A DNA stretch of 64,000 nt, taken from the NCBI GenBank assembly GCA_001464125.1, contig LNEP01000006.1:98310-162309 (forward strand), in the 5' to 3' direction. The notes beneath the pieces were generated by a model that saw only the letters and a program-made list of their open reading frames with translations, was not told where the DNA came from and did not search any database. The translations under genes were made by a program, and so were the position numbers. The first letter of the stretch is position 1. Every line of letters begins with the position of its first letter. This stretch comes from Betaproteobacteria bacterium Ga0077540. Its GTDB lineage: Bacteria; Pseudomonadota; Gammaproteobacteria; Burkholderiales; Methylophilaceae. This document shows positions 49,046 through 64,000 of this stretch, piece by piece.

Positions 49046-49122
49046 GGTGATGTAGCTCAGCTGGTTAGAGCACAGGATTCATAATCCTGGGGTCGAGGGT
49101 TCAAGTCCCTCTTTCACCACCA
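49046..49122 (+). tRNA. tRNA-Met (CAT)
   Basis: GGTGATGTAGCTCAGCTGGTTAGAGCACAGGATTCATAATCCTGGGGTCGAGGGTTCAAGTCCCTCTTTCACCACCA cloverleaf, encoded CCA. Confidence 0.95.
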
Positions 49123-49128
49123 ACAAAG

Positions 49129-49266: not shown

Positions 49267-49449
49267 TTAACTGGCTTTTCTTCTCTCATCAATCCAGTCA
49301 TTAATTTCGCTCAACTTCCACACGCTTGTTCTCTCAGTCAGTTTAATTTGTTTAGGAAACTTACCATCCTTAACTGATCTGTAAATCGTACTCTTACCAA
49401 TACCAAGCATATTTGAAAGTTCTTTAATACGAACGTATCTATCTACTAA
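49267..49449 (-). CDS. AlpA-family excisionase/regulator
   Basis: RYVRIKELSNMLGIGKSTIYRSVKDGKFPKQIKLTERTSVWKLSEINDWI. Confidence 0.88.
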   Translation of the reverse strand, partial: LVDRYVRIKELSNMLGIGKSTIYRSVKDGKFPKQIKLTERTSVWKLSEINDWIDERRKAS

Positions 49450-49580
49450 CATATATAACTCCCATTTATTGATAACTGTGTATAGTGAACTCACCTAAAT
49501 GAGTATTTGTTAATTATTCACATCCAATCATTTCATGAATAAGCACTTTGAAAAACTAGATTAATAATTTTTGTTTTTTC

Positions 49581-51144: not shown

Positions 51145-51290
51145 CCGTAATCAGAAAGCTTATATTGGCTTACGAGTCCAAAGACTACTCAAAACTTACG
51201 AAGGTTGATTTATTTGAATTAGTTAAAAAGGGAATCTTGCATCAAGAAACCGCTGACAGACTCTTGAAGGAGACTTCAAATGTCAGTTAG
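51141..51290 (+). CDS. 49-aa hypothetical, ATGA-coupled to upstream and overlapping downstream gene
   Basis: MTVIRKLILAYESKDYSKLTKVDLFELVKKGILHQETADRLLKETSNVS*; not in supplied ORF track. Confidence 0.5.
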   Translation: MTVIRKLILAYESKDYSKLTKVDLFELVKKGILHQETADRLLKETSNVS

Positions 51291-51945
51291 GGTTCTTTCA
51301 AAAGTTTGGGATGGCTATCCTGGTGGCGGGACAGAGTTACTGGCGCTATTGGCTTTAGCGGACTGGTCTGATGATGAAGGCAGATGCTTTCCTTCAATTA
51401 AATCTATAGCCAAGAAAATTCGCCTTAAAGAAAGACAGGCTCAGCGCGCAGTTAACAAACTAATTAACAATGGATATGTGAAAGTAATCAGTAATAAATT
51501 CGGCGGTTCACCCGGATCAACTAGAAATTATCAAATAATCATCAATAATCTAACGGGTGTCATTTACGACACCCCTTCAGACGAGACGGGTGTCATCCAA
51601 GACGCAAACGGGTGTCATATCACTCCACTTACGGGTGTCACTGACGACACCCTAACCGTCATAGAACCATCATTAACCGTCAGTGCAAAATTCTCCAAAT
51701 TTTGGAATGCATATCCAAAAAAGAAAAGCAAAGGGGATGCTGAAAAAGCATTTAAATCGATCAACCCAGATTCAGAAACACTTGAGCAGATACTTGCTGC
51801 TATCGAGATTCAAAAAAGAACCTCCGAGTGGTCAAAAGATAATGGTCGATATATTAAATATCCTGCAACTTGGCTTAGGGGTAAGGCATGGTTAGATGAG
51901 TTTTTAGTCACCAACACTAATGACCTCATGGATGGTGTGCTATGA
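51280..51945 (+). CDS. HTH replication initiator (phage O-like / HTH_36)
   Basis: LALLALADWSDDEGRCFPSIKSIAKKIRLKERQAQRAVNKLINNGYVKV; C-terminal FWNAYPKKKSKGDAEKAF; internal repeats. Confidence 0.75.
   Translation: MSVRVLSKVWDGYPGGGTELLALLALADWSDDEGRCFPSIKSIAKKIRLKERQAQRAVNKLINNGYVKVISNKFGGSPGSTRNYQIIINNLTGVIYDTPSDETGVIQDANGCHITPLTGVTDDTLTVIEPSLTVSAKFSKFWNAYPKKKSKGDAEKAFKSINPDSETLEQILAAIEIQKRTSEWSKDNGRYIKYPATWLRGKAWLDEFLVTNTNDLMDGVL
51553..51652. repeat. Iteron-like repeats inside initiator gene (candidate origin)
   Basis: ACGGGTGTCA(T/C) at 51553, 51586, 51608, 51631; inverted GACACCC at ~51568 and ~51646. Confidence 0.65.
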
Positions 51946-52424
51946 GTAACGTTCACAATTTATTAAACAGATTGAATAATGTTAAGAAAACGGGCAAGCA
52001 TAGCTGGAAGGCATGTTGCCCAGCTCATAATGGCACTAAACAAAGCTTAGCTATACGCGATGATAACGGTATTGTGCTCATTCACTGTTTTGCTGAAGGT
52101 TGTGCAATAGGTGATGTTCTTTGCACAGTTGGTTTGTCTTTTGCAGACATCATGCCGGATCGTATTGGAGTTGCAAAGCCCAATAAAAAGCCATTTTACG
52201 CGAGTGATGTTTTGCAAATATCAAGCGATGAAATTCTAATAGCCTACCTAATCACAAAAAAAATGCTGGATAGAACAGTTAACTTTAACGATTCACAAAG
52301 GTTGCTTAAATGTGCAAATCGTTTACGCCATGCCTGTGAAATTGCAAATGAAGGTAACGGTACACAAGTAATCGAGGCAAATAAAAATCTCAGAATTATT
52401 GAAAGGACTGTAAATGCTGAATGA
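51942..52424 (+). CDS. CHC2-type zinc-ribbon primase-like protein (no Toprim visible)
   Basis: HSWKACCPAHNGTKQSLAIRDDNGIVLIHCFAEGCAIGDVL. Confidence 0.7.
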   Translation: MSNVHNLLNRLNNVKKTGKHSWKACCPAHNGTKQSLAIRDDNGIVLIHCFAEGCAIGDVLCTVGLSFADIMPDRIGVAKPNKKPFYASDVLQISSDEILIAYLITKKMLDRTVNFNDSQRLLKCANRLRHACEIANEGNGTQVIEANKNLRIIERTVNAE

Positions 52425-53424
52425 GAGATTAGCCGCTTTTGACGAGAGTGCTCAAAAATCTGATGCAATTAATATGCAGGGGCTTCAATATCCGCCAACC
52501 CTTCAAAGTCAAATAAATAGATTGATAATAAGCGAACATGACCTTGATGGTTACATGATTGAACGCGATGCCTCAGAGCATTCAAATGTAAAACCTGCCA
52601 ATGTGTTTTTAGATGATTTAATTACATTTTTTAATTCTGATACAGTTTATACAGGCGCTGGTCTGCCATGGTCAAAGACGCATGAACAGTTCAGATTACG
52701 TCCAAGTGAAGTTACCTTGTGGGCAGGCTTCAACGGTTCTGGCAAGAGTCTCGTACTTGGTCAAATCATGCTGCATTTACTTAAAGATCAAAAGATATGC
52801 ATTGCATCGCTTGAAATGAAGCCTGTCACAACTCTAGCACGCATGTGTCGCCAAGCGTTGGGAGCAAATAACCCTACGGATGATTACATTAAGAGATTTT
52901 GTGTCCGGGGTTGTGAGAAGTTGTGGCTATACAACCAATTAGGAACGGTTAACTCAGAGCGCATAATTTCAGTGATTCACTATGCTACTGAAAAACTAGG
53001 GGTACAGCATTTTGTTGTTGATAGTCTAATGAAATGCGGAATTGCTGATGATGACTATACAGGCCAAAAGAATTTTGTAGATAAGTTATGCGCTGTTGCT
53101 AAAGATACTGGTTGTCATATTCACTTGGTTGCTCATTCTCGCAAAGGTGCGGATGAATTATCTCCTCCCGGCAAGATGGATGTTAAGGGCTCTGGCTCGA
53201 TAACGGATCAAGTTGATAACGTAATGACGGTATGGAGAAACAAACGAAAGGAGCAGGCTGTAGCATCAAATAAAGCGGATGATAAAACATTGAGTGAACC
53301 AGATACTCTCATCATTTGCGACAAGCAACGTAATGGCGAATGGGAGGGTAAAGTTGGCCTTTGGTTTCATCAATCAAGCATGCGTTTTTTAGAAAATAAG
53401 AGTCAAAATTTTGCACTAAGTTAA
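52414..53424 (+). CDS. DnaB/RepA-like replicative helicase ATPase
   Basis: Walker A GFNGSGKS; CIASLEMKPVTTLARMCRQA; VVDSLMKCG; HLVAHSRKGAD. Confidence 0.82.
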   Translation: MLNERLAAFDESAQKSDAINMQGLQYPPTLQSQINRLIISEHDLDGYMIERDASEHSNVKPANVFLDDLITFFNSDTVYTGAGLPWSKTHEQFRLRPSEVTLWAGFNGSGKSLVLGQIMLHLLKDQKICIASLEMKPVTTLARMCRQALGANNPTDDYIKRFCVRGCEKLWLYNQLGTVNSERIISVIHYATEKLGVQHFVVDSLMKCGIADDDYTGQKNFVDKLCAVAKDTGCHIHLVAHSRKGADELSPPGKMDVKGSGSITDQVDNVMTVWRNKRKEQAVASNKADDKTLSEPDTLIICDKQRNGEWEGKVGLWFHQSSMRFLENKSQNFALS

Positions 53425-53465: not shown

Positions 53466-54518
53466 TTAGTTCACGTCATCACTTCTAGCAACTGTCCAAA
53501 TTCTTTTTAGGGGCAGTTCAGCTTTGATTTCCTCGTCTAGCTTTTCATAATTTAAAAATAGCTGCTCTAACAAATCATTTTGAGTCCAAAGTCTTACTTT
53601 AAAAAAACTAGATGCGAGCTCTTTTTGAACACCTGATTTAAAACCACCCCATGATACGAACAAACCATTTTTAGCATTAAACTTAGTCATGGCCCCTATC
53701 AATTTATCTACAGTTGGCCTGTCAGTTAAACCATCACCCGATTTCACCTCAATACAAATTTTTTGAGATCCAAAACCCATTGGTCCGTCACTAGCAAGTA
53801 TATCTACACCGCCATCTGCACCTTCCGGGCTTTGCCAGCAGGTATAGCCTTGAACTTCTAATATTGCTTTCACCAATCTTGTAAGCTGATGTCCCTTGAA
53901 TTTTGCTTCGATGAGTTTAACAATTTGATTTTTCCCTAACGCCTCAAGGTCAGTTTCAAACTCTTCATTCGTATCGTTATCTGTTGCAATTAAACTATCA
54001 TTTTTAGAGATTATTTGATTATTTGTTTCTGGTTGCCAATTATTAACCTCCATCTGGGCTAGCCTCACTTCGGCATTGTTACGTGTGATCCGACACACCG
54101 TCATAAAAGCACCAAAGCTGTAAAGCAAATCTTGTGAAAAGTGAGTTCTAGGAATTGGCTCAGCTAACCATTCAACTTCACGATAATGAAAAAAAGGATT
54201 ATTAGCATTTATATCATAGTGATAATCAGATTTTACTTTGCCAATATAAATAACTGGCTGCGTTTTTGAAGGCAGAATTATCCTGTCGCCTATATTCATG
54301 CTATGTACAAATGGCCATATTTGGCTTGCATGATTAATCAACTTTCTAGGTTTGGGGTCGCTGACAACTTTTTCTAGCTCATCAATCAAATCAGAACGAC
54401 TTTTTAGCTTGTCAATTGGAGTATTTAAATCGTCCCAAGTGAGATAAATGCGCTTCTCTTGAAGAAACTTTTGCTCATATTGCCCTTGGGCACCAGCTCT
54501 GACTAACCAAACTGCCAT
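53466..54518 (-). CDS. Mrr-type restriction endonuclease with N-terminal EVE/PUA-like domain
   Basis: WLVRAGAQGQYEQKFLQEKRIYLTWDDL..; catalytic region GGVDILASDGPMGFGSQKICIEVKSG. Confidence 0.82.
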   Translation of the reverse strand: MAVWLVRAGAQGQYEQKFLQEKRIYLTWDDLNTPIDKLKSRSDLIDELEKVVSDPKPRKLINHASQIWPFVHSMNIGDRIILPSKTQPVIYIGKVKSDYHYDINANNPFFHYREVEWLAEPIPRTHFSQDLLYSFGAFMTVCRITRNNAEVRLAQMEVNNWQPETNNQIISKNDSLIATDNDTNEEFETDLEALGKNQIVKLIEAKFKGHQLTRLVKAILEVQGYTCWQSPEGADGGVDILASDGPMGFGSQKICIEVKSGDGLTDRPTVDKLIGAMTKFNAKNGLFVSWGGFKSGVQKELASSFFKVRLWTQNDLLEQLFLNYEKLDEEIKAELPLKRIWTVARSDDVN

Positions 54519-54522
54519 ATTA

Positions 54523-55326
54523 TTAATCCAATTCTAAAATCTCTTTAACCTCAGCTAAATCACGATGCGGTCTGATATAAACAATTGCTGCCCTCGATAA
54601 CTTCTCTGAGTCTCTGACCATTTTCCTCAATGATACTTTTGCATCTTGAACATCGATATTATTTCTAATTTTTTGTATCAGTCTCTCAACCTCAATTCTG
54701 ATATTGTTTCTTGCTCTGACTATTTTTATCTCATGAAGATGAAAAATATCGATTGAGTTTTTTACTTTTATCACCTCTTGTGCATTTGCACTAGGTTTGT
54801 GAATTGGTTTTCCATCATTATCAAACCATAATATTTTTTCATCGTCAGGATTGAAAGGGTCCAAGAAATTTGGAGTTTCTAAAATAAGTGAATCAGCTGA
54901 TGTAAATGCCCTTTGGCTAGAAGCAGTAATAGGAAACTTGCAGGCTTTGCCACCAACAGTTTCATCAAAAGCTCTAAGGCTATTACAATAAGTACAAGCG
55001 CAACGATAATTCTCCCAGTCAAATGCCAGCCACCAATAACCATCGTGATTATCTTCGTTCTCAACTTTATTTTTTGGTCGGAAATGGTCTACAGGCATAT
55101 CAGATCGAATATCCTCAGCTTCGCAATACCAACATTTCTTTTTCAGATTATCTGGCAATAATTTATAAAAATCTCTCCAAATCTTTGAAGAGCTTGCTTT
55201 TTTCAATATTGCTTTACGCTGTTTATCGGTTGTGGCAGTTATCAGTTTTTGTTTTGCTTGTGCAGCCCTCGTACGCCATGCGGCTGTCAGACATCCCTCA
55301 ATATCATCCTTGCATATCCAACGCAT
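54523..55326 (-). CDS. HNH endonuclease (TIGR02646/PtuB-like)
   Basis: CWYCEAEDIRSDMPVDHFRPKNKVENEDNHDGYWWLAFDWENYRCACTYCNS. Confidence 0.82.
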   Translation of the reverse strand: MRWICKDDIEGCLTAAWRTRAAQAKQKLITATTDKQRKAILKKASSSKIWRDFYKLLPDNLKKKCWYCEAEDIRSDMPVDHFRPKNKVENEDNHDGYWWLAFDWENYRCACTYCNSLRAFDETVGGKACKFPITASSQRAFTSADSLILETPNFLDPFNPDDEKILWFDNDGKPIHKPSANAQEVIKVKNSIDIFHLHEIKIVRARNNIRIEVERLIQKIRNNIDVQDAKVSLRKMVRDSEKLSRAAIVYIRPHRDLAEVKEILELD

Positions 55327-56837
55327 TATTCAGTAGCTTTCTTGTAGTGATATTTTTTTCTCAGGAAGTCCATATAATCTGGATCATCAGATGCCATATT
55401 GAAGCCAAGTTTATCTAATTCAGTGTTAATCCCTTTTAATTCAGCTTCTTCATCATCAGTTAACTGATCTTTTGAAGCAAGAAAATTTCTTCTTGATAAC
55501 TTCGTATTGGTGTCATCATCAAGCGTAGTTTTCATATCAAACATGTCGCTGCGAAGAATTAGATTTATACCCATCCCTTTCGGACTTTCTTCAGGCATTT
55601 GAGCATGTGACTGATACTTTTCGTCTTTCCACATCACCTGAATTTGTTTTTTATCCAACTCAGCAATTGCTAACGGGTGATGTGTAACCATTAATAAATG
55701 GCTAGTGTCATGGTTGGGGACAAACTCTCGCAAAAATTTTAAATACTTTGCTGCCCAGGACGGGTTTAGGTGGGTGTCTGGTTCATCCAGTAAAAATACT
55801 GAATCTTTTCCGCCAGTAAATTTGAGCAATCCTATTACAGTAAGTAATTGTTGCTCACCCTCACTTAGTTCTCTAAAGGTTAGCGGCTCCTTACTTGATG
55901 TTGTTTTTACACGTATTCGAACCTCAGAGATAATGTCTGAAAGCAAGGTACTTTCCAACATTTTGAATAATTCGTCAGCTGATAAATCTTTGGAAAAATC
56001 TCTCAAAGACTGAATATTGGGTAAAAATAAATGAAAAAACTCATTTTTAAGTCCTAAGCCTGTCAGCGATGTCGTTTCATGCCTTGTAACCTTAACTGGT
56101 GCTAGGCTGAATTTAATAAGATCGTCTAAAAACCTTCTGACAACGCCACGTGCGCCCCAAAAAATCTCATTTTTTTGCTTTGCCCATTCAGGTTTACGCA
56201 TTACAAAATGAATGCTATCTAAAGCTTCAATTCCCAAATGCTCTTTTAGAAACGCTCTCTCAGGACTTGTTTCTTGAGATAGAAAGAAAGCAAGTAACAC
56301 AAATTGACTATGATGTGGCTTAGCATAAAAAAGAGGGCGAATATCACCTTTTAAGTTAAGCTCATCTTTGAGTAATTTATTATAAAAGTTGGTTCTGTGT
56401 TTTTTAAAATAGCTCTCTAATCGATCGCTGGGGCCTGAATAGTACGCAAAAACATAGTTAGGTAGAAAATCAGATTTGCCATTTTTATCACGAGTGACTT
56501 TAGAAAAAGGCGCTTCAAAAACAAGATTATCTGAGTTCTTAACTTTAACATCATATTGCTTTGAAAGCGTTCCCCTATTGGGGTCGGCATCAATCGTAAT
56601 TTCTTTCCAACTTGCAGTATTTTTTTCGCCTAATTGATAAACCAATTCGTATGAAAAAGTTGGATCTTCACCTAAATCTAAATTGCGGAATATACAAACT
56701 AAAGCTTCCAGCACATTCGATTTTCCTGAGCCATTGCGACCAACAATCACTGTCATCAAGTGATCCTCGTCGAAATCGACCCTTATACTTTCAAGATTCT
56801 TGAACCTTGAGCGAATATATAATTTATCAACTTTCAT
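55326..56837 (-). CDS. Restriction-system-associated AAA (ABC/SMC-type) ATPase, PtuA-like
   Basis: Walker A VGRNGSGKSNVLEAL; LSEGEQQLLTVIGLL signature; VFLLDEPDTHLNPSW. Confidence 0.85.
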   Translation of the reverse strand: MKVDKLYIRSRFKNLESIRVDFDEDHLMTVIVGRNGSGKSNVLEALVCIFRNLDLGEDPTFSYELVYQLGEKNTASWKEITIDADPNRGTLSKQYDVKVKNSDNLVFEAPFSKVTRDKNGKSDFLPNYVFAYYSGPSDRLESYFKKHRTNFYNKLLKDELNLKGDIRPLFYAKPHHSQFVLLAFFLSQETSPERAFLKEHLGIEALDSIHFVMRKPEWAKQKNEIFWGARGVVRRFLDDLIKFSLAPVKVTRHETTSLTGLGLKNEFFHLFLPNIQSLRDFSKDLSADELFKMLESTLLSDIISEVRIRVKTTSSKEPLTFRELSEGEQQLLTVIGLLKFTGGKDSVFLLDEPDTHLNPSWAAKYLKFLREFVPNHDTSHLLMVTHHPLAIAELDKKQIQVMWKDEKYQSHAQMPEESPKGMGINLILRSDMFDMKTTLDDDTNTKLSRRNFLASKDQLTDDEEAELKGINTELDKLGFNMASDDPDYMDFLRKKYHYKKATE

Positions 56838-58459
56838 TATTTTTCTAAATACTTGGCAAGTGCAAACCAGTCCTGACCTTCATCACCACGATTCAACTTA
56901 ATAATTTCCCCTGCATCAAGTGAATCCCTTAAATCCAAATAGAACTTCTCCAGTGTTTCCGCATCAGCGTCATTTGGATAACCTGCTGCAAGAAGCAATT
57001 CTTGACCAGAAAGAATATGATCCTCATCGCTTGAGTCAACATTAAAAGCATCTTTAACTTTTAAGATTTTATTAATAGACACAATAGCCCTCATTCTAAT
57101 ATCAAGTGGTGGAAGTGGTAGGTTAATGGACATTTTCATGGCTTTTTTTGAATTGTCACTTTTTGTTTTTTCATCTTTTATTCTCATTAAAAGTGCCTGT
57201 GCTGAATTATCCCCAGAAATTAAATCCATATTACTTTCGCGCCAACTTTTAGTTAAATCACCGCTAAAAGCTTTAGCAAGAATAGATTGAGGTAGTCTGG
57301 AAGCTTTATCTAATGCAAGTTTAGCTCGACTTTCTGTTTGTGATGTTTTTTCAAAAATTTCATTAACGCGTCTGACAATTTCGTTTTGCTCTCTAAGTGA
57401 GGGGTGGCGTATTTTAATTTTTTTTAGTAATGAGGCTTTAATCCCTTTTACAGTTGTACCAGTAGCATAGCTATTAAGCGCCATCTGGAACTCAGATGTT
57501 TGCATGAAGATAGAGGCGTAGTAAGGGTTGACAGTCTCTTGAAACTGAAGACATATCGCCCTTTGAGCCAGAGCAAATTTCTCTGTTATGTTAACGTTCG
57601 CCACAAACCCCATTGGGGCTTCCGTTGTAATAAGTACATCACCATATTTTGGAATGCCGCGTGTCATCCATGATTCGTAATCCTTTTCTGAAATAAATTC
57701 CCTAGGTTCAAGAGATAAAAATCCTTGTCTAATATTTTTTGCTGTGATTAATGGAAAACCATACGAAGTTTTTTTGGGTGTTTTACCCCTATAGTCAATG
57801 AATCTAGCTACTCGTCCAAGCTCTGAAACTTCATAATTAGGTTTCTCCGCTAGTCGCCAATCCTCTGTCAGCTTCCCACTTACTGCGTCTGCAAGAACAG
57901 ATTGGCGGAGTTTTTTGAGTATTTGCGGGATGCGTTCGAGACGTGCTTTTATTCGCTCGACTTTTGCAAGCATGTCATCTAGCTTAATTACGATAATCTT
58001 CTGTTCGCTTAGTGGTGCTAATACAATTGGAATTTTCCTCATATTTGCTTGAGTAAGCTTTAGACGTGTTCCTCCGTTTACATACCCTTGATAATCAAAT
58101 TGATTTAGATAATGAAGAATGTATTTGTTTATAGCCACTTGCTCTTTTGCCTTTAAGACATGAGCATGATTATTTACCCATGTTTTACCTTGCAATAAAT
58201 ATGCTTTTGCTTTTCGAGCATCAAAAAAAGGAACCCCATCCTCTCCAAGTGCAACAAGCTCTTCATCAAAAATATATCCATCAATTTTCCCAACTTCACC
58301 AGTAGCCCCATAATATGGATAAAGTTGAGATTGCGACTTATTCTTTACTCTTGAACTTCTATCATCACTATTGACGGGCACCCTCATCGAATCAAGTATC
58401 TCAACAACATTCTCGAGATAAACTTGTGCCCAACCTGAGGGGAAATTAGATGAGACCAT
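56837..58459 (-). CDS. hsdS: Type I restriction-modification specificity subunit
   Basis: Two target-recognition half repeats with conserved region LERIPQILKKLRQSVLADAVSGKLTEDWR / ASRLPQSILAKAFSGDLTKSWR. Confidence 0.93.
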   Translation of the reverse strand: MVSSNFPSGWAQVYLENVVEILDSMRVPVNSDDRSSRVKNKSQSQLYPYYGATGEVGKIDGYIFDEELVALGEDGVPFFDARKAKAYLLQGKTWVNNHAHVLKAKEQVAINKYILHYLNQFDYQGYVNGGTRLKLTQANMRKIPIVLAPLSEQKIIVIKLDDMLAKVERIKARLERIPQILKKLRQSVLADAVSGKLTEDWRLAEKPNYEVSELGRVARFIDYRGKTPKKTSYGFPLITAKNIRQGFLSLEPREFISEKDYESWMTRGIPKYGDVLITTEAPMGFVANVNITEKFALAQRAICLQFQETVNPYYASIFMQTSEFQMALNSYATGTTVKGIKASLLKKIKIRHPSLREQNEIVRRVNEIFEKTSQTESRAKLALDKASRLPQSILAKAFSGDLTKSWRESNMDLISGDNSAQALLMRIKDEKTKSDNSKKAMKMSINLPLPPLDIRMRAIVSINKILKVKDAFNVDSSDEDHILSGQELLLAAGYPNDADAETLEKFYLDLRDSLDAGEIIKLNRGDEGQDWFALAKYLEK

Positions 58460-60054
58460 TAATTGGATCCCTCTAATTCACTCAACAATAACTCTAATTC
58501 ACCAAGAGCACTTTCCAATTCAGCTTTTGCCTCAACCACTAAGATACTTGGGTCAGGCAAGTTAGCAATATGAGCACTATCATTATCTTTCAACCAGCTA
58601 ATATCTAAAGAATCGCCTTTATGCTCGGCAATCCAGTTTCGGTTGAAACTACGCCAACGGCTTTTGGCTAGCTTCTGATCAACACCTTGGTTCTCATCTG
58701 TTTGAGTCGTTTCCACTTCTTCTATATTGAAACTCCACTCGCCTTGTTGGCGGCTTGCTAAAATTTTGGCAATGTTTTTTTCGTTAAAGGTCTTGCTATT
58801 GGTCGGGTCAAACACTTTCTCAAATTGTTTTAGGTGGTCTTCGCCAAATGGGCTGCGTTTGCCAAAGCTGGGGATATTTGTTCGCAGGTCATATACCCAA
58901 ACATTTTGTGTGCAGTTTTCTTGTTGGCGTGGATCTGTTGCGCTACCTTTGTTAAAAAATAGCACGTTCGTTTTTACGCCTTGGGCGTAAAAAATACCTG
59001 TAGGCAATCGCAATATAGTATGTAAATTGCATTTATTCATCAGATCGCGACGAATCTCTGTGCCTTTACCAGCTTCAAACAAAACGTTATCAGGCAACAC
59101 CACGGCAGAACGGCCCCCTGGTTTTAGATTACGGTAGATATGTTGTAAGAAGGCGAGCTGTTTATTGCTAGTTTCATAGGTAAGATCATCACGTGTAATG
59201 CTTGCCTCGCCACCCTTGCTTGTTCCGAAGGGCGGGTTAGCCAAAATCACATCTGCGGCACTTAGATTTGCGCCAACTTGACCTAAGGCATTGCCAAGGT
59301 GAACTACACCCTCATCGTCACCCTCCATGCCATGCAATAAGCAGTTCATTAATGCAAGCCTGCGAGTTCCAGGGACAAGTTCTACCCCAACAAACGCTTT
59401 GTTTTTTTGAAAGCTTTGCTCTTCAGCTTTAAGGCTATAGAGTTCATCGGTATTGCTTTTGATATAAGCATCTGCAGCGATTAAAAAACCAGCCGTCCCA
59501 GCTGCTGGATCTTGAATCACTTCTCCCGGTTGCGGCTTGATGCAACGCACCATGCTATTGATTAGCGCACGAGGCGTAAAGTATTGGCCAGCGCCTGATT
59601 TAGTTTCACCAGCATTTTTCTCTAACAAGCCTTCGTATAAATCACCCAAGCCATCTTTCTGAGCACTAAACCAATCAATCTGATCAAGCGTTTTAATGAG
59701 TTGCTCCAAGTGGCGTGGTTCACGCAAGCGGGTTTGGGCATCGGCATAGATAGCGCTAATTAATGGGTCTTGATGAACGACCTTACCTACAGCGTCTTTG
59801 CCAGTGGAAAGTGCTAACAACATACGTCTGTAGTCGTTTAGTAGGTTAATACCCGACTTGCCGTTTAAATCTGTCCAACGGCAACCTTCAGGTAATGGAT
59901 GTTTTTTAAGTGTGCCTGCCTCGGTGTTTTCATGCACCATTTTAATAAACAGTAGTAGCACTAACTCAGTGACGTAATCACTATAGTTAATGCCATCATC
60001 TCGTAGAACATCACAGAGGTTCCAGAGTTTTTGAACGATGTCGTTATTGGTCAT
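58459..60054 (-). CDS. hsdM: Type I restriction-modification DNA methyltransferase subunit
   Basis: GAGQYFTPRALI, DPAAGTAGFLI, ILANPPFG motifs. Confidence 0.95.
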   Translation of the reverse strand: MTNNDIVQKLWNLCDVLRDDGINYSDYVTELVLLLFIKMVHENTEAGTLKKHPLPEGCRWTDLNGKSGINLLNDYRRMLLALSTGKDAVGKVVHQDPLISAIYADAQTRLREPRHLEQLIKTLDQIDWFSAQKDGLGDLYEGLLEKNAGETKSGAGQYFTPRALINSMVRCIKPQPGEVIQDPAAGTAGFLIAADAYIKSNTDELYSLKAEEQSFQKNKAFVGVELVPGTRRLALMNCLLHGMEGDDEGVVHLGNALGQVGANLSAADVILANPPFGTSKGGEASITRDDLTYETSNKQLAFLQHIYRNLKPGGRSAVVLPDNVLFEAGKGTEIRRDLMNKCNLHTILRLPTGIFYAQGVKTNVLFFNKGSATDPRQQENCTQNVWVYDLRTNIPSFGKRSPFGEDHLKQFEKVFDPTNSKTFNEKNIAKILASRQQGEWSFNIEEVETTQTDENQGVDQKLAKSRWRSFNRNWIAEHKGDSLDISWLKDNDSAHIANLPDPSILVVEAKAELESALGELELLLSELEGSN

Positions 60055-61866
60055 TGCTTGTTTCTCATTAAAATAATTTCTATGCCCAAATGGCTTCGCT
60101 GATTTCTTGTATTACTTGGTCAAGTTGGTTGCCAAGGATATTGTTTAATTGTTTTATCCCACCGTCAAAATGCGCATTGATAAACGTTTGGTCTAAAATG
60201 ACTTCAAACACCAGTTGTTTGGCGATTCTTTCTAACCATTTTTTCTGAACAGGAGTCCATGCATGCTGGGTATATATTTTATCCATTGCTATTTTAACGC
60301 GTTGTTCAAACGGAATCAGCGCTTCACCTAAAGCAGCGCGGCGTATATGCCCAATAATGCTGGCAGCAATGTCTTGGTTAGTTTGATTACGCACCGCTGA
60401 TTGCAAGTTTTTCTCAGAGTAGCCTGCATTATCAAGCATGAGTTTGATTTCTTTGAGTTGCTCACGGGTGAGGTCACGTGGACGATTGACCACAATCGCT
60501 AACGCAGCAGATTGGTTGAGTTGGTCACGGATAAATTGGTTAAAACTGTCCAAATAATCCTCTGGACGTTGATGCTCTCCATAACTTTGTACGCGCTGTC
60601 TTAATTCATCTGCATGCTCTGAAATGATGGGTTTGTATTCTGTGCCAATGAGCTGGTTAATTTCTGCAATTTGCTTTACAAACTGGCTGTGTTTTTGAAT
60701 AAATTGTGCGGCTTGTTGCGGGCCTAACGCTTTCAGATGCTGATGTAGTGATTTGGGCTCAACTCCCCAAGTTTCTTTAAGCTCAGTCAGTTTCTGTTTG
60801 ATTGGAGCCTTGGTTTCTGCTTGATGTTCTGCTTTGCGCAATACGCGCATTAGTTTTTGAGAAAGTTGACTTAACACTACATCAGCTTGGCTCTCACCTT
60901 TTTTCTCACCAGGGGCATTAAGTGCGAGTTGCAGACGGTCAGGGTTAGCTAGCTCCTCGACCAATTGCTCAAGTGTAATGTCAACGTTTTTAACCAGTGG
61001 CTGCATTGTATTGACGTTTTGCAAGGCAGCATAAATTGAAACTGGGTCGTAAATTCTGAAAACAGTTTTGCCAATTTCGTCGCAACGCCTTGTAGCACGG
61101 CCTATCATTTGCTCAAAAAGAATGCGTGATTTGACGCGACGCAAGAATACGATGTTGCAGATTTTGGGTACATCAATACCAGTTGTGAGCAAATCTACCG
61201 TAATCGCAATATTAGGGTAACGTTCATTTTTGTACTGGCGAATGAGTTGTTTAACCTTATCGCTTTGACCTGTGATTTTGGAAACAGCAGCTTGTTTATA
61301 GTCTTCGCCATAAAGATTTAAAAAAGCCTCATCTAACAAGCGTTTTACCATGTCGGCATGCAAGTCTGTGGCACAGAAAATCAGCGTTTTTTCTTCTCCG
61401 AACGGATCAAGCTCTTGCACGAGTTGTTCGCAAATGACGCGGTTAAAGTTTTCGTTAATAACGCGTTTATTGAATGCATCAATCTCAAAATCGAGTTCGT
61501 CATCCAGATCGGCAGTCTCTACTTCACCTGTTTGGGTGTCTATGGCTTTGACCGTTTCGCCCTTATCAAAATGAATACCTTTTTGACTAAGTAATGTTTC
61601 GTATCGGATTGGAGGTTCATGGTCAATTAGCCAATCATCTGCAACGGCCTCACGATATGAGTAGGTAAAAATTGGACGTCCAAAAATCTCTGTTGTTTGT
61701 TTTGCTGGTGTAGCAGTTAATCCGACTTTAACTGCATCAAAATAATCTATCACGCGGCGGTAACTTGAAAGGTATTGTGCAGCATCCCTTGTCGCAAGCT
61801 CACCCTCAGTCATTTCTTGATCAAGCGTGTAGCTGACCTATGCTGTCAATCAAAGAGTCGAACGGG

Positions 61867-62754
61867 TTAAGCCGCAAGCAATTTTTTATAGTATTGCTGC
61901 GTAAAAGTAGCAGGCGATAAATATCCTAATCTGTTATAGAACACCTCAACATATTCTGTAATTTCTTGTATAGCTTGTTGCCGCGTGGCGAATTGCTTGT
62001 GATATACAAGCTCATTCTTTAACGTTCCCCAGAAGCTTTCCATAGGTGCGTTATCCCAACAGTCACCTTTACGGCTCATTGAAACCGTCATACCAAATTG
62101 GGTGAGTAGCTTTTGATAGTCATGGGCACAATATTGGCTGCCGCGATCTGAATGCAACACCAACCCTTTAGCTGGACGTTTGTTAGCTACAGCCCTAAAT
62201 AAGGCCTGAGCTACCAGCGATTGCGTCATGCGCTCATTCATGGCATAGCCAACCAACTCTCCACTGCATAAATCTTTAATGCCCGCTAAATACAACCAAC
62301 CTTCATTCGTTGAAACGTAGGTGATATCACTCACCCAAGCCTTATTGGGCGAACTGACGTTAAATGCTCTAGCCAATATATTGTTGGCGACTGGAAACTT
62401 GTGATTGGAGTTGGTCGTCACTTTGAATTTACGACGTTGTTTGCATCGCAAATTAAGCTTCTTACGTAACATACGCACCTGGTATGGGGTAATGTGTATG
62501 CCGTGATCTACCATGTCGCTATGCAAGCGTTCTGCACCATAAGTTTCTCGCGTGCGTTGGTGCGCAGCTAATACTTCTATTTCCAATCGTGCATTCTCTA
62601 GTTTCCGTGACGAAGGCGGTCTAATTGCCCAAGCATGAAAGCCACTCTCAGAAACTTCTAAAGTACGACACATGAGTACAACTGGGTAAAATCCACGCAT
62701 ACTTCTAATCTGCTCGTATCTCACCGTGAGGTCTTGGCGAAATACGTTGCACAC
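61867..62754 (-). CDS. IS3-family transposase OrfB (DDE)
   Basis: AWVSDITYVSTNEGWLYLAGIKDL..LHSDRGSQY..SMSRKGDCWDNAPMESFWGTLKNE. Confidence 0.95.
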   Translation of the reverse strand: MCNVFRQDLTVRYEQIRSMRGFYPVVLMCRTLEVSESGFHAWAIRPPSSRKLENARLEIEVLAAHQRTRETYGAERLHSDMVDHGIHITPYQVRMLRKKLNLRCKQRRKFKVTTNSNHKFPVANNILARAFNVSSPNKAWVSDITYVSTNEGWLYLAGIKDLCSGELVGYAMNERMTQSLVAQALFRAVANKRPAKGLVLHSDRGSQYCAHDYQKLLTQFGMTVSMSRKGDCWDNAPMESFWGTLKNELVYHKQFATRQQAIQEITEYVEVFYNRLGYLSPATFTQQYYKKLLAA

Positions 62755-63050
62755 TTTTTTATAAAATCACGCTCCATTTTAACTTCAGCTAATTCACGTT
62801 TTACTCGTGAAAGCTCAAGCTCTAATTCTGACAGTGGTTTTTGATGTTTGCCGACTGTAGAGAGTTCGCCTTTTTTATCCGCAGTAACCCAAGATAGTAA
62901 TGTAGTTTTAGGCAGCGACAAACGCTTTGCTGTTTCAACTAGGGTTAAATTGCTTTCATTAAATGACTTAACTGCTTGCTCTCTAAATTCAGGGCTATAT
63001 TGCGCCTTGGGTATCTTATTCATTTGAGTGACTCCGTTTCTTTCATGCAT
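62721..63050 (-). CDS. IS3-family OrfA (HTH)
   Basis: KAQYSPEFREQAVKSFNESNLTLVETAKRLSLPKTTLLSWV. Confidence 0.95.
   Translation of the reverse strand: MHERNGVTQMNKIPKAQYSPEFREQAVKSFNESNLTLVETAKRLSLPKTTLLSWVTADKKGELSTVGKHQKPLSELELELSRVKRELAEVKMERDFIKKCATYFAKTSR
62754..62760 (-). other. Programmed -1 frameshift slippery site A_AAA_AAG
   Basis: orfA frame ATA AAA AAG TGT; orfB is in the -1 frame directly after it. Confidence 0.8.
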
Positions 63051-64000
63051 TTTACGAAATGTTCGACTCTTTGAATATCAGCTTAGCTCAAGCCTCGATG
63101 TGCTTCATCAACAATAATGCAATCAAATTGATCGATTGCAGGTGGGTTATCCGACATGAAAACACGCTTTACCATTGCTTGCACTGTAGATACTTGTACT
63201 CGTGTTTCTGCTTCAGCGGCCATATCCCCCAATTCGGCGACATTATAAATTTTCGCAAGGGATTGGTTTTGCTCTAAAGGGGCTTCATCAAATGCATCTA
63301 GCGCTTGTTCACCTAAAGAGGTTCTGTCCACTAAAAACAAAATGCGTTTAAACCGCTCAGCTTTTAAAAACCGATACATCAGGCCAATAATTGTGCGTGT
63401 TTTACCTGTACCTGTTGCCATCGCTAAAAGCGCAGTTCGCTGATTGTTTGCAACCGCTTGCTCAACAGCTTGTATCGCTTTCTGCTGATAATCACGCACT
63501 TTGAGGTAGCCAAAGGGCTCAATCTTCAATTTTTCTTCTGCTTGTTCTTTACTTCGCTTGAGTAAGTCTGCAAGACCTTGCGGCGTGTGGAATTGTTGTA
63601 AAGCGCGGCTGATATTACTAGGTTCACGTACATCACGAAACCATGTGCCAGATTGTTCTGCTAACTGTGAAATAAATGGACGCCCATTACAAGAGTATAC
63701 AAAAGGGATTTGATAGTGGCTGTCTTCTTCATCTGGCCAAGCAACCGTTCTGCCGGCTAACTCCCATGCTCCTTTTAGAGGCGAAGCAATTTTAAAGCCT
63801 TTGCTGTATCTCACAGCTTGGGGGATTTTGCCAGCAACGTTGACGTTTTCTTTCTTTGCTTCAACCACAGCTAATGGAGTAAGTCCCGCAAACAAAACAT
63901 AATGACCTGCCCCCAACAACCCTACCAGTTTTTATTGAAAAAAGTCCGATTAAAAATCATGTTGCTTGCCTAAGTCTTTGCGCATAGATAGCAGGTGGAA

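Follow-up and report, generated by a model that had tools for sequence, protein, structure and literature searches.

The window analysed here, a stretch of 64,000 nucleotides, carries one end of what appears from its sequence to be an integrative island in tRNA-Met, about 20.4 kb long plus a gap. The island combines a replication module with defence genes, and its far end lies on a second contig, C5. Its features are as follows (window positions unless contig C5 is named):

49073–49123, + strand: attL, the 3′ part of tRNA-Met(cat) (49046–49122), a 51-bp repeat (repeat match)
49267–49494, − strand: AlpA-family regulator/excisionase (Pfam Phage_AlpA, E 4.5e-17)
51280–51945, + strand: O-like replication initiator, 221 aa (HTH_36, E 8e-13; PHROG 270 'replication initiation protein', E 6e-41)
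51942–52424, + strand: CHC2/DnaG-type zinc-ribbon protein (Zn_ribbon_DnaG, E 7e-5, just below the Pfam cut-off; PHROG 6088 DNA primase)
52414–53424, + strand: DnaB-C/RecA-fold helicase-like ATPase (DnaB_C, E 1e-10; PHROG 239 primase/helicase, E 4e-57)
53466–63919 (53466–60054 and 60080–63919), − strand: defence cargo, comprising a PDC-S02 Mrr-like nuclease, Septu PtuB/PtuA and type I R-M hsdS/hsdM/hsdR
61867–63050: IS3-family element interrupting hsdR
Contig C5, L268:5486–5536: attR, the 51-bp copy (repeat match)
Contig C5, L268:3960–5327: tyrosine integrase, an open gene that adjoins attR

No second att copy was found within the window; it was located on contig C5. That contig starts close to sequence for the hsdR N-terminus, beyond an IS-like end at which the assembly breaks. 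The att repeat and the split hsdR are the grounds on which C5 was joined to the window's end. Neither virion genes nor a packaging or capsid-size gene were recognised in the sequenced part of the element. With its IS-split hsdR and its integrase on another contig the element may be decaying, and its completeness is presumed. A related element of about 10.9 kb occupies a tRNA-Ser in genome G115 (L027:15203–19901 and L028:1–6297) and carries a like replication cassette, a 14-bp att repeat and an integrase; no virion genes were recognised in it.

The initiator consists of an N-terminal winged helix-turn-helix (wHTH) domain (approximately residues 1–92, with the recognition helix RLKERQAQR), a linker (approximately residues 93–139) and a C-terminal helical domain. 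A Pfam search of the protein returned HTH_36 and a sub-threshold DnaD_N match, with no match to Phage_rep_O. A sequence search gave a weak DnaD match, and the N-domain is matched by the O-like PHROG families 391 and 8540. Foldseek comparison with the PDB yielded nothing below E 6e-3, the similarities being to MarR-like wHTH proteins and, weakly, to the RepA type. In the AF2 model confidence is limited to the N-terminal winged HTH and is poor for the linker and the C-terminal domain, so that no single-stranded DNA (ssDNA)-binding site can be named in the initiator. Both the profile match and the place ahead of helicase/primase genes that characterise HTH_36/PHROG 270 phage initiators were found. 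An earlier note on this DNA had described the next two genes as zinc-ribbon primase-like and DnaB-like, a description that holds at the level of domain matches (Zn_ribbon_DnaG, sub-threshold, and DnaB_C); no primase catalytic domain is recognisable in the zinc-ribbon open reading frame (ORF). L013 (81% identity, from another genus within the same family) and L019 (58%, from IMG/VR), the two closest relatives, share the order initiator, zinc-ribbon ORF, DnaB-C ATPase.

Iterons within the initiator gene

The linker of the initiator is encoded by DNA that contains four direct repeats:

51553–51574, + strand: iteron 1, with the full dyad GGGTGTCATTTACGACACCC (51555–51574), exact pattern match
51586–51603, + strand: iteron 2, exact pattern match
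51608–51625, + strand: iteron 3, in a reading frame different from that of the other three
51631–51652, + strand: iteron 4, with the full dyad GGGTGTCACTGACGACACCC (51633–51652), exact pattern match

The four copies of ACGGGTGTCA(T/C) begin at 51553, 51586, 51608 and 51631, with spacings of 33, 22 and 23 bp. They are exact and occupy the positions given in the earlier note, and no further copy without mismatch occurs anywhere in the window. Copies 1 and 4 were said to form GGGTGTC..GACACCC dyads, and they are full and exact instances of GGGTGTC-N6-GACACCC. With up to one mismatch allowed, the 2.33-Mb assembly contains just these two dyads and zero matches to a reversed control pattern. In a first-order Markov null of the 64 kb (n = 300), any 10-mer reached a maximum of two non-overlapping copies per 110 bp, compared with the four observed, and in 5000 synonymous-codon shuffles of the initiator gene the number of repeat copies always stayed below four. 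Copies 1, 2 and 4 share one frame, in which they encode TGV, and copy 3 lies in another, encoding GCHI; the repeat is therefore kept as DNA and not as peptide. The earlier note included neither this out-of-frame copy nor the second set of repeats described below. The iterons lie approximately 270–400 bp into the coding sequence, not at a promoter.

Repeats absent or unconserved in orthologous elements had been named as grounds for abandoning the origin proposal, and the comparison with homologs went the other way: an iteron array is present in the corresponding linker of all 20 close N-domain homologs examined, and its sequence shifts with the recognition helix. In most of these homologs the terminal iterons are spaced by 22 and 23 bp, a spacing that puts the penultimate copy into a different frame. 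The iteron sequence varies by clade and is GGGTGTC, GGGYCGC or GGGAGGG. Its class tracks the recognition helix (KERQAQR-type helices with GGGTGTC, SRSQAQR with GGGYCGC and SEKQARR with GGGAGGG) in 20 of the 20 proteins, a count in which kinship is addressed through C-terminal domain swaps. Iteron class is independent of the swapped C-terminal domain, since one C-terminal group of seven proteins spans all three classes, with the helix matched in each. Inspection of a wider set of 81 dereplicated homologs associated further helices with further iterons, QSERTVQYQLR with GGGTGCAA, GVRQVQRT with GGGTGACA and GERAVQTNIR with TGCGGGGG, and repeat number exceeded that of all 20 synonymous shuffles in 58 of the 81. 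In the G115 ortholog, from another genus, iteron positions are unchanged and eight of nine motif codons are identical at conserved residues. The initiator gene at L040:3278–4204 has approximately nine iterons, gained mostly in 18-bp (six-codon) steps, as if its array had grown by in-frame duplication.

A constant array behind the iterons

The iterons are followed by three copies of a second motif, AACCRTCA, and by a stretch of moderate A+T content:

51654–51661, + strand: AACCRTCA copy 1, AACCGTCA, 21 bp past the GGG of iteron 4
51665–51672, + strand: AACCRTCA copy 2, AACCATCA
51675–51682, + strand: AACCRTCA copy 3, AACCGTCA
51684–51770, + strand: moderately A+T-rich stretch (65.5%, from base composition), a possible extension of the opened region

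The copies at this locus are 10–11 bp apart. When over-represented 8-mers were sought de novo in the 81 initiator genes, AACCGTCA and AACCATCA ranked as the top two. Together the genes contain 132 copies of AACCRTCA, a 9-fold excess over 100 synonymous shuffles (mean 14.6, maximum 23), and just three copies on the reverse strand. The copies are distributed over the three frames as 17/72/43 and are read as TV(I/S), EPS and NHQ/NRQ, and 57 of 72 distances between neighbours measure 10–12 bp. In 18 close homologs the first copy begins 21 bp after the GGG of the last iteron (CCC in the GGGAGGG class), whatever the iteron sequence.

Viral contigs were also scanned blind for three copies in tandem, and 88 of the 120 matches listed fell inside ORFs with an initiator profile; among the matches listed, these 88 were all in the sense orientation, with frames 45/22/21. 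For a scrambled motif, none of the 120 matches listed fell in initiators, and 234 of 240 spacings were 12 bp. The number of matches was dropped as evidence, since the scrambled motif likewise gave at least 120, mostly 12-bp-period repeats; the location of the matches is therefore the only informative part of the scan. Across 299 genomes of the phylum, the triple motif occurs in just two, at the present locus and in another HTH initiator. Among named phages, the array is carried by Pseudomonas phage PP9W2, Bordetella phage PHB09 and EBPR podovirus 2, and Arthrobacter phage Andrew has variant copies of the GAACCGTCC type at the equivalent place. A cluster of at least two strict copies is found in only 38 of the 81 dereplicated homologs and none is found in lambda, and AACCRTCA is therefore not universal. 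Open-access papers yielded nothing on AACCRTCA or on nested origins in the HTH_36 initiator family.

Tandem repeats of other sequence were also seen. In other phage initiator families, purine-rich linker tandems, AAGAGAATAGAAGA and AGAGAAGAG, lie roughly at the AACCRTCA position (L022:1576–1604 and L255:1426–1450). The L156 ORF has tandem AACCATCAAGC in an initiator with a different N-domain, whose C-domain belongs, by eye, to the same family as that of L003.

The sequence right after the iterons had been called AT-rich. At this locus that is true to a modest degree, A+T being 63.6% at 51653–51770 versus 58.4% for the initiator gene. As a distinct tract the feature is weak, and an A+T-rich unwinding region 3′ of AACCRTCA is absent on average in the homologs. 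The local A+T maximum in the homologs is the AACCRTCA array itself, where it rises above the codon-shuffle null, i.e., beyond what the protein demands.

A candidate bipartite origin

These observations suggest that the locus is the replication origin of the tRNA-Met-integrated element, nested in its own initiator gene, a reading that we consider probable. Taken jointly, the claims that the locus is an origin and that the initiator binds the iterons seem very probable. What the sequence shows is the anatomy of the site, its conservation, selection acting on the DNA itself and covariation of helix and iteron. The site appears to be bipartite, with iterons that vary with the recognition helix and a constant 8-letter AACC(A/G)TCA part. 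The constant part is a candidate strand-opening or loading element, an assignment based on its arrangement and on analogy, to which we give an even chance. In the proposed mechanism, initiator dimers would dock on each iteron by the recognition helix and, spaced by 22/23 bp, stack into an O-some-like complex, which would open the adjoining AACCRTCA tract on its 3′ side. One strand of the tract would then offer a recognition site at roughly each turn of the helix, and the initiator or a partner would keep this strand unpaired while the element's DnaB-like helicase and zinc-ribbon protein load at the opened tract. Because the iterons and their reader are encoded in one gene, specificity would travel as one cassette, leaving the AACCRTCA part constant.

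The main alternative concerns only the AACCRTCA part. It proposes that a nucleoid or initiation factor of the host binds the motif as duplex, in helical phase with the iterons, and that the motif has no single-strand or opening role. A period of 10–12 bp suits proteins that bind along one side of the double helix, the motif stays constant although the iteron specificity of the initiator changes, and the variant in Arthrobacter phage Andrew might be host-linked; we regard this explanation as plausible, if somewhat doubtful. AACCRTCA is not known to match a host motif such as the DnaA box or the IHF site. The coincidence of the array with the local A+T peak also weighs against a duplex site, as do the ATCA repeats in the opened region of V. 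cholerae ori2, which RctB reads as a single strand (PMC11711613, PMC10316083).

An origin that is real by descent could have fallen out of use in the present chromosome. Disruption of hsdR by an IS element, at which the assembly breaks, is consistent with such a dead remnant. We consider this unlikely, because no replication ORF of the three is interrupted, the element has its two att sites as well as an open integrase gene, and in G115 the ortholog retains the iteron positions and most motif codons.

Plasmid Rep proteins often regulate their own synthesis through sites related to their iterons. The initiator might similarly bind the array as a set of operator sites and so repress or attenuate the operon that encodes it, with no origin involved; protein bound beyond the start codon could form a roadblock. 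The location of the iterons deep inside the coding sequence instead of at a promoter, the rigid 22/23/21 spacing that couples them to a second, strand-specific array, the zinc-ribbon and helicase genes that come next, and the equivalent place of the lambda iterons make this explanation improbable. A dual role, in which the iterons serve as origin and in autoregulation, is possible.

Finally, linkers of this initiator family are repetitive at the protein level (TGV.., EPS..), but the idea that selection acted on the peptide and left the DNA likeness as a by-product was rejected as extremely improbable, given the out-of-frame copy 3 here and penultimate copy in most of the clade, the failure of all 5000 synonymous shuffles to match the observed copy number, the reading of AACCRTCA in three frames at 9-fold excess and the disordered AF2 model of the linker.

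The bipartite origin may extend well beyond this element. A large class of temperate phages and integrative islands of Proteobacteria, possibly also of Actinobacteria, could share one nested design, in which a swappable iteron/helix cassette is combined with a constant, strand-specific AACCRTCA array, phased by one helical turn, for opening and helicase entry; we give this generalisation an even chance. We know of no mapped origin for most temperate phages and satellites. A constant array whose distance from the iterons is fixed, if true, would make many such origins findable by pattern, and the array provides a specific candidate for the site of opening and loading. The helix/iteron classes provide natural swaps for studying the joint evolution of initiator and origin specificity. 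The locus would also be an unusual case in which one stretch of DNA serves as coding sequence, binding array and opening site.

Relation to known replication systems

In gene content the element resembles Gram-negative PICIs of the EcCICFT073 type, with AlpA, an integrase, its own replication module, accessory and defence genes and no virion genes (PMC6092414). The integrase, AlpA and att sites expected of PICIs were all found and no virion structural genes were recognised, in an element that lacks part of its gene content where the contig ends. In PICIs the origin is situated 3′ of the rep gene and has two iteron sets flanking an A+T-rich region (PMC6092414), whereas the present element has a single array inside the initiator gene; no pri-rep or terminase genes were recognised in it. 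PICI membership was rejected because of this mismatch in origin layout, i.e., a single intragenic array versus two sets 3′ of pri-rep.

The HTH_36 'primosomal protein I'/initiators of Pseudomonas phage PP9W2 and Bordetella phage PHB09 share the wHTH, the repeat linker, AACCRTCA, the C-terminal domain and the downstream replication genes. They differ in belonging to full phages and in having other iteron sequences, and the record features returned for them include no annotated origin.

Iterons beside short direct repeats in an opened region are also known from V. cholerae ori2, where six ATCA repeats are read single-stranded by RctB (PMC10316083, PMC11711613), and from RK2 oriV, where there are four GGTT repeats and an ssDNA grip has been proposed for TrfA (PMC10316083, PMC11711613, PMC10797057). 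The AACCATCA form of the motif includes ATCA, and GGTT on the opposite strand, which may be coincidence. Neither origin lies within a phage-type HTH_36 initiator gene, and their initiators are unrelated; recognition of ssDNA has been demonstrated there and is surmised at the present locus.

The locus would work by analogy with lambda ori. Lambda ori in gene O and the Stx phage origins lie in the middle of the initiator gene (PMC7466680), and the lambda initiator, bound to its iterons, opens DNA on their 3′ side (PMC7466680). The lambda record annotates four O-binding iterons inside gene O, with spacings of 20, 24 and 23 bp (L257), and direct-repeat iterons inside the initiator coding sequence are found here as well. 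The lambda and Stx origins also resemble the present locus in having iterons of approximately 18–20 bp at 20–24-bp spacing that are not all in one frame, and a helicase-recruitment gene directly downstream. Their A+T-rich or opening side lies 3′ of the iterons, where A+T is modestly raised at the present locus. The earlier note's lambda-like reading, with the origin lying in an O-like initiator gene, is supported by these annotated iterons together with the linker arrays of the 20 homologs. Lambda differs in having an A+T-rich tract and no AACCRTCA cluster; at the present locus the N-domain is HTH_36/DnaD-like, and the element has genes for a DnaB-like ATPase and a zinc-ribbon protein of its own, with no P-type loader recognised. 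An origin within an initiator gene is an already known kind. As far as the open-access literature was searched, what is new is that the AACCRTCA array is constant and keeps its register in many phage-type initiators, and that recognition helix and iteron correspond in HTH_36 initiators.
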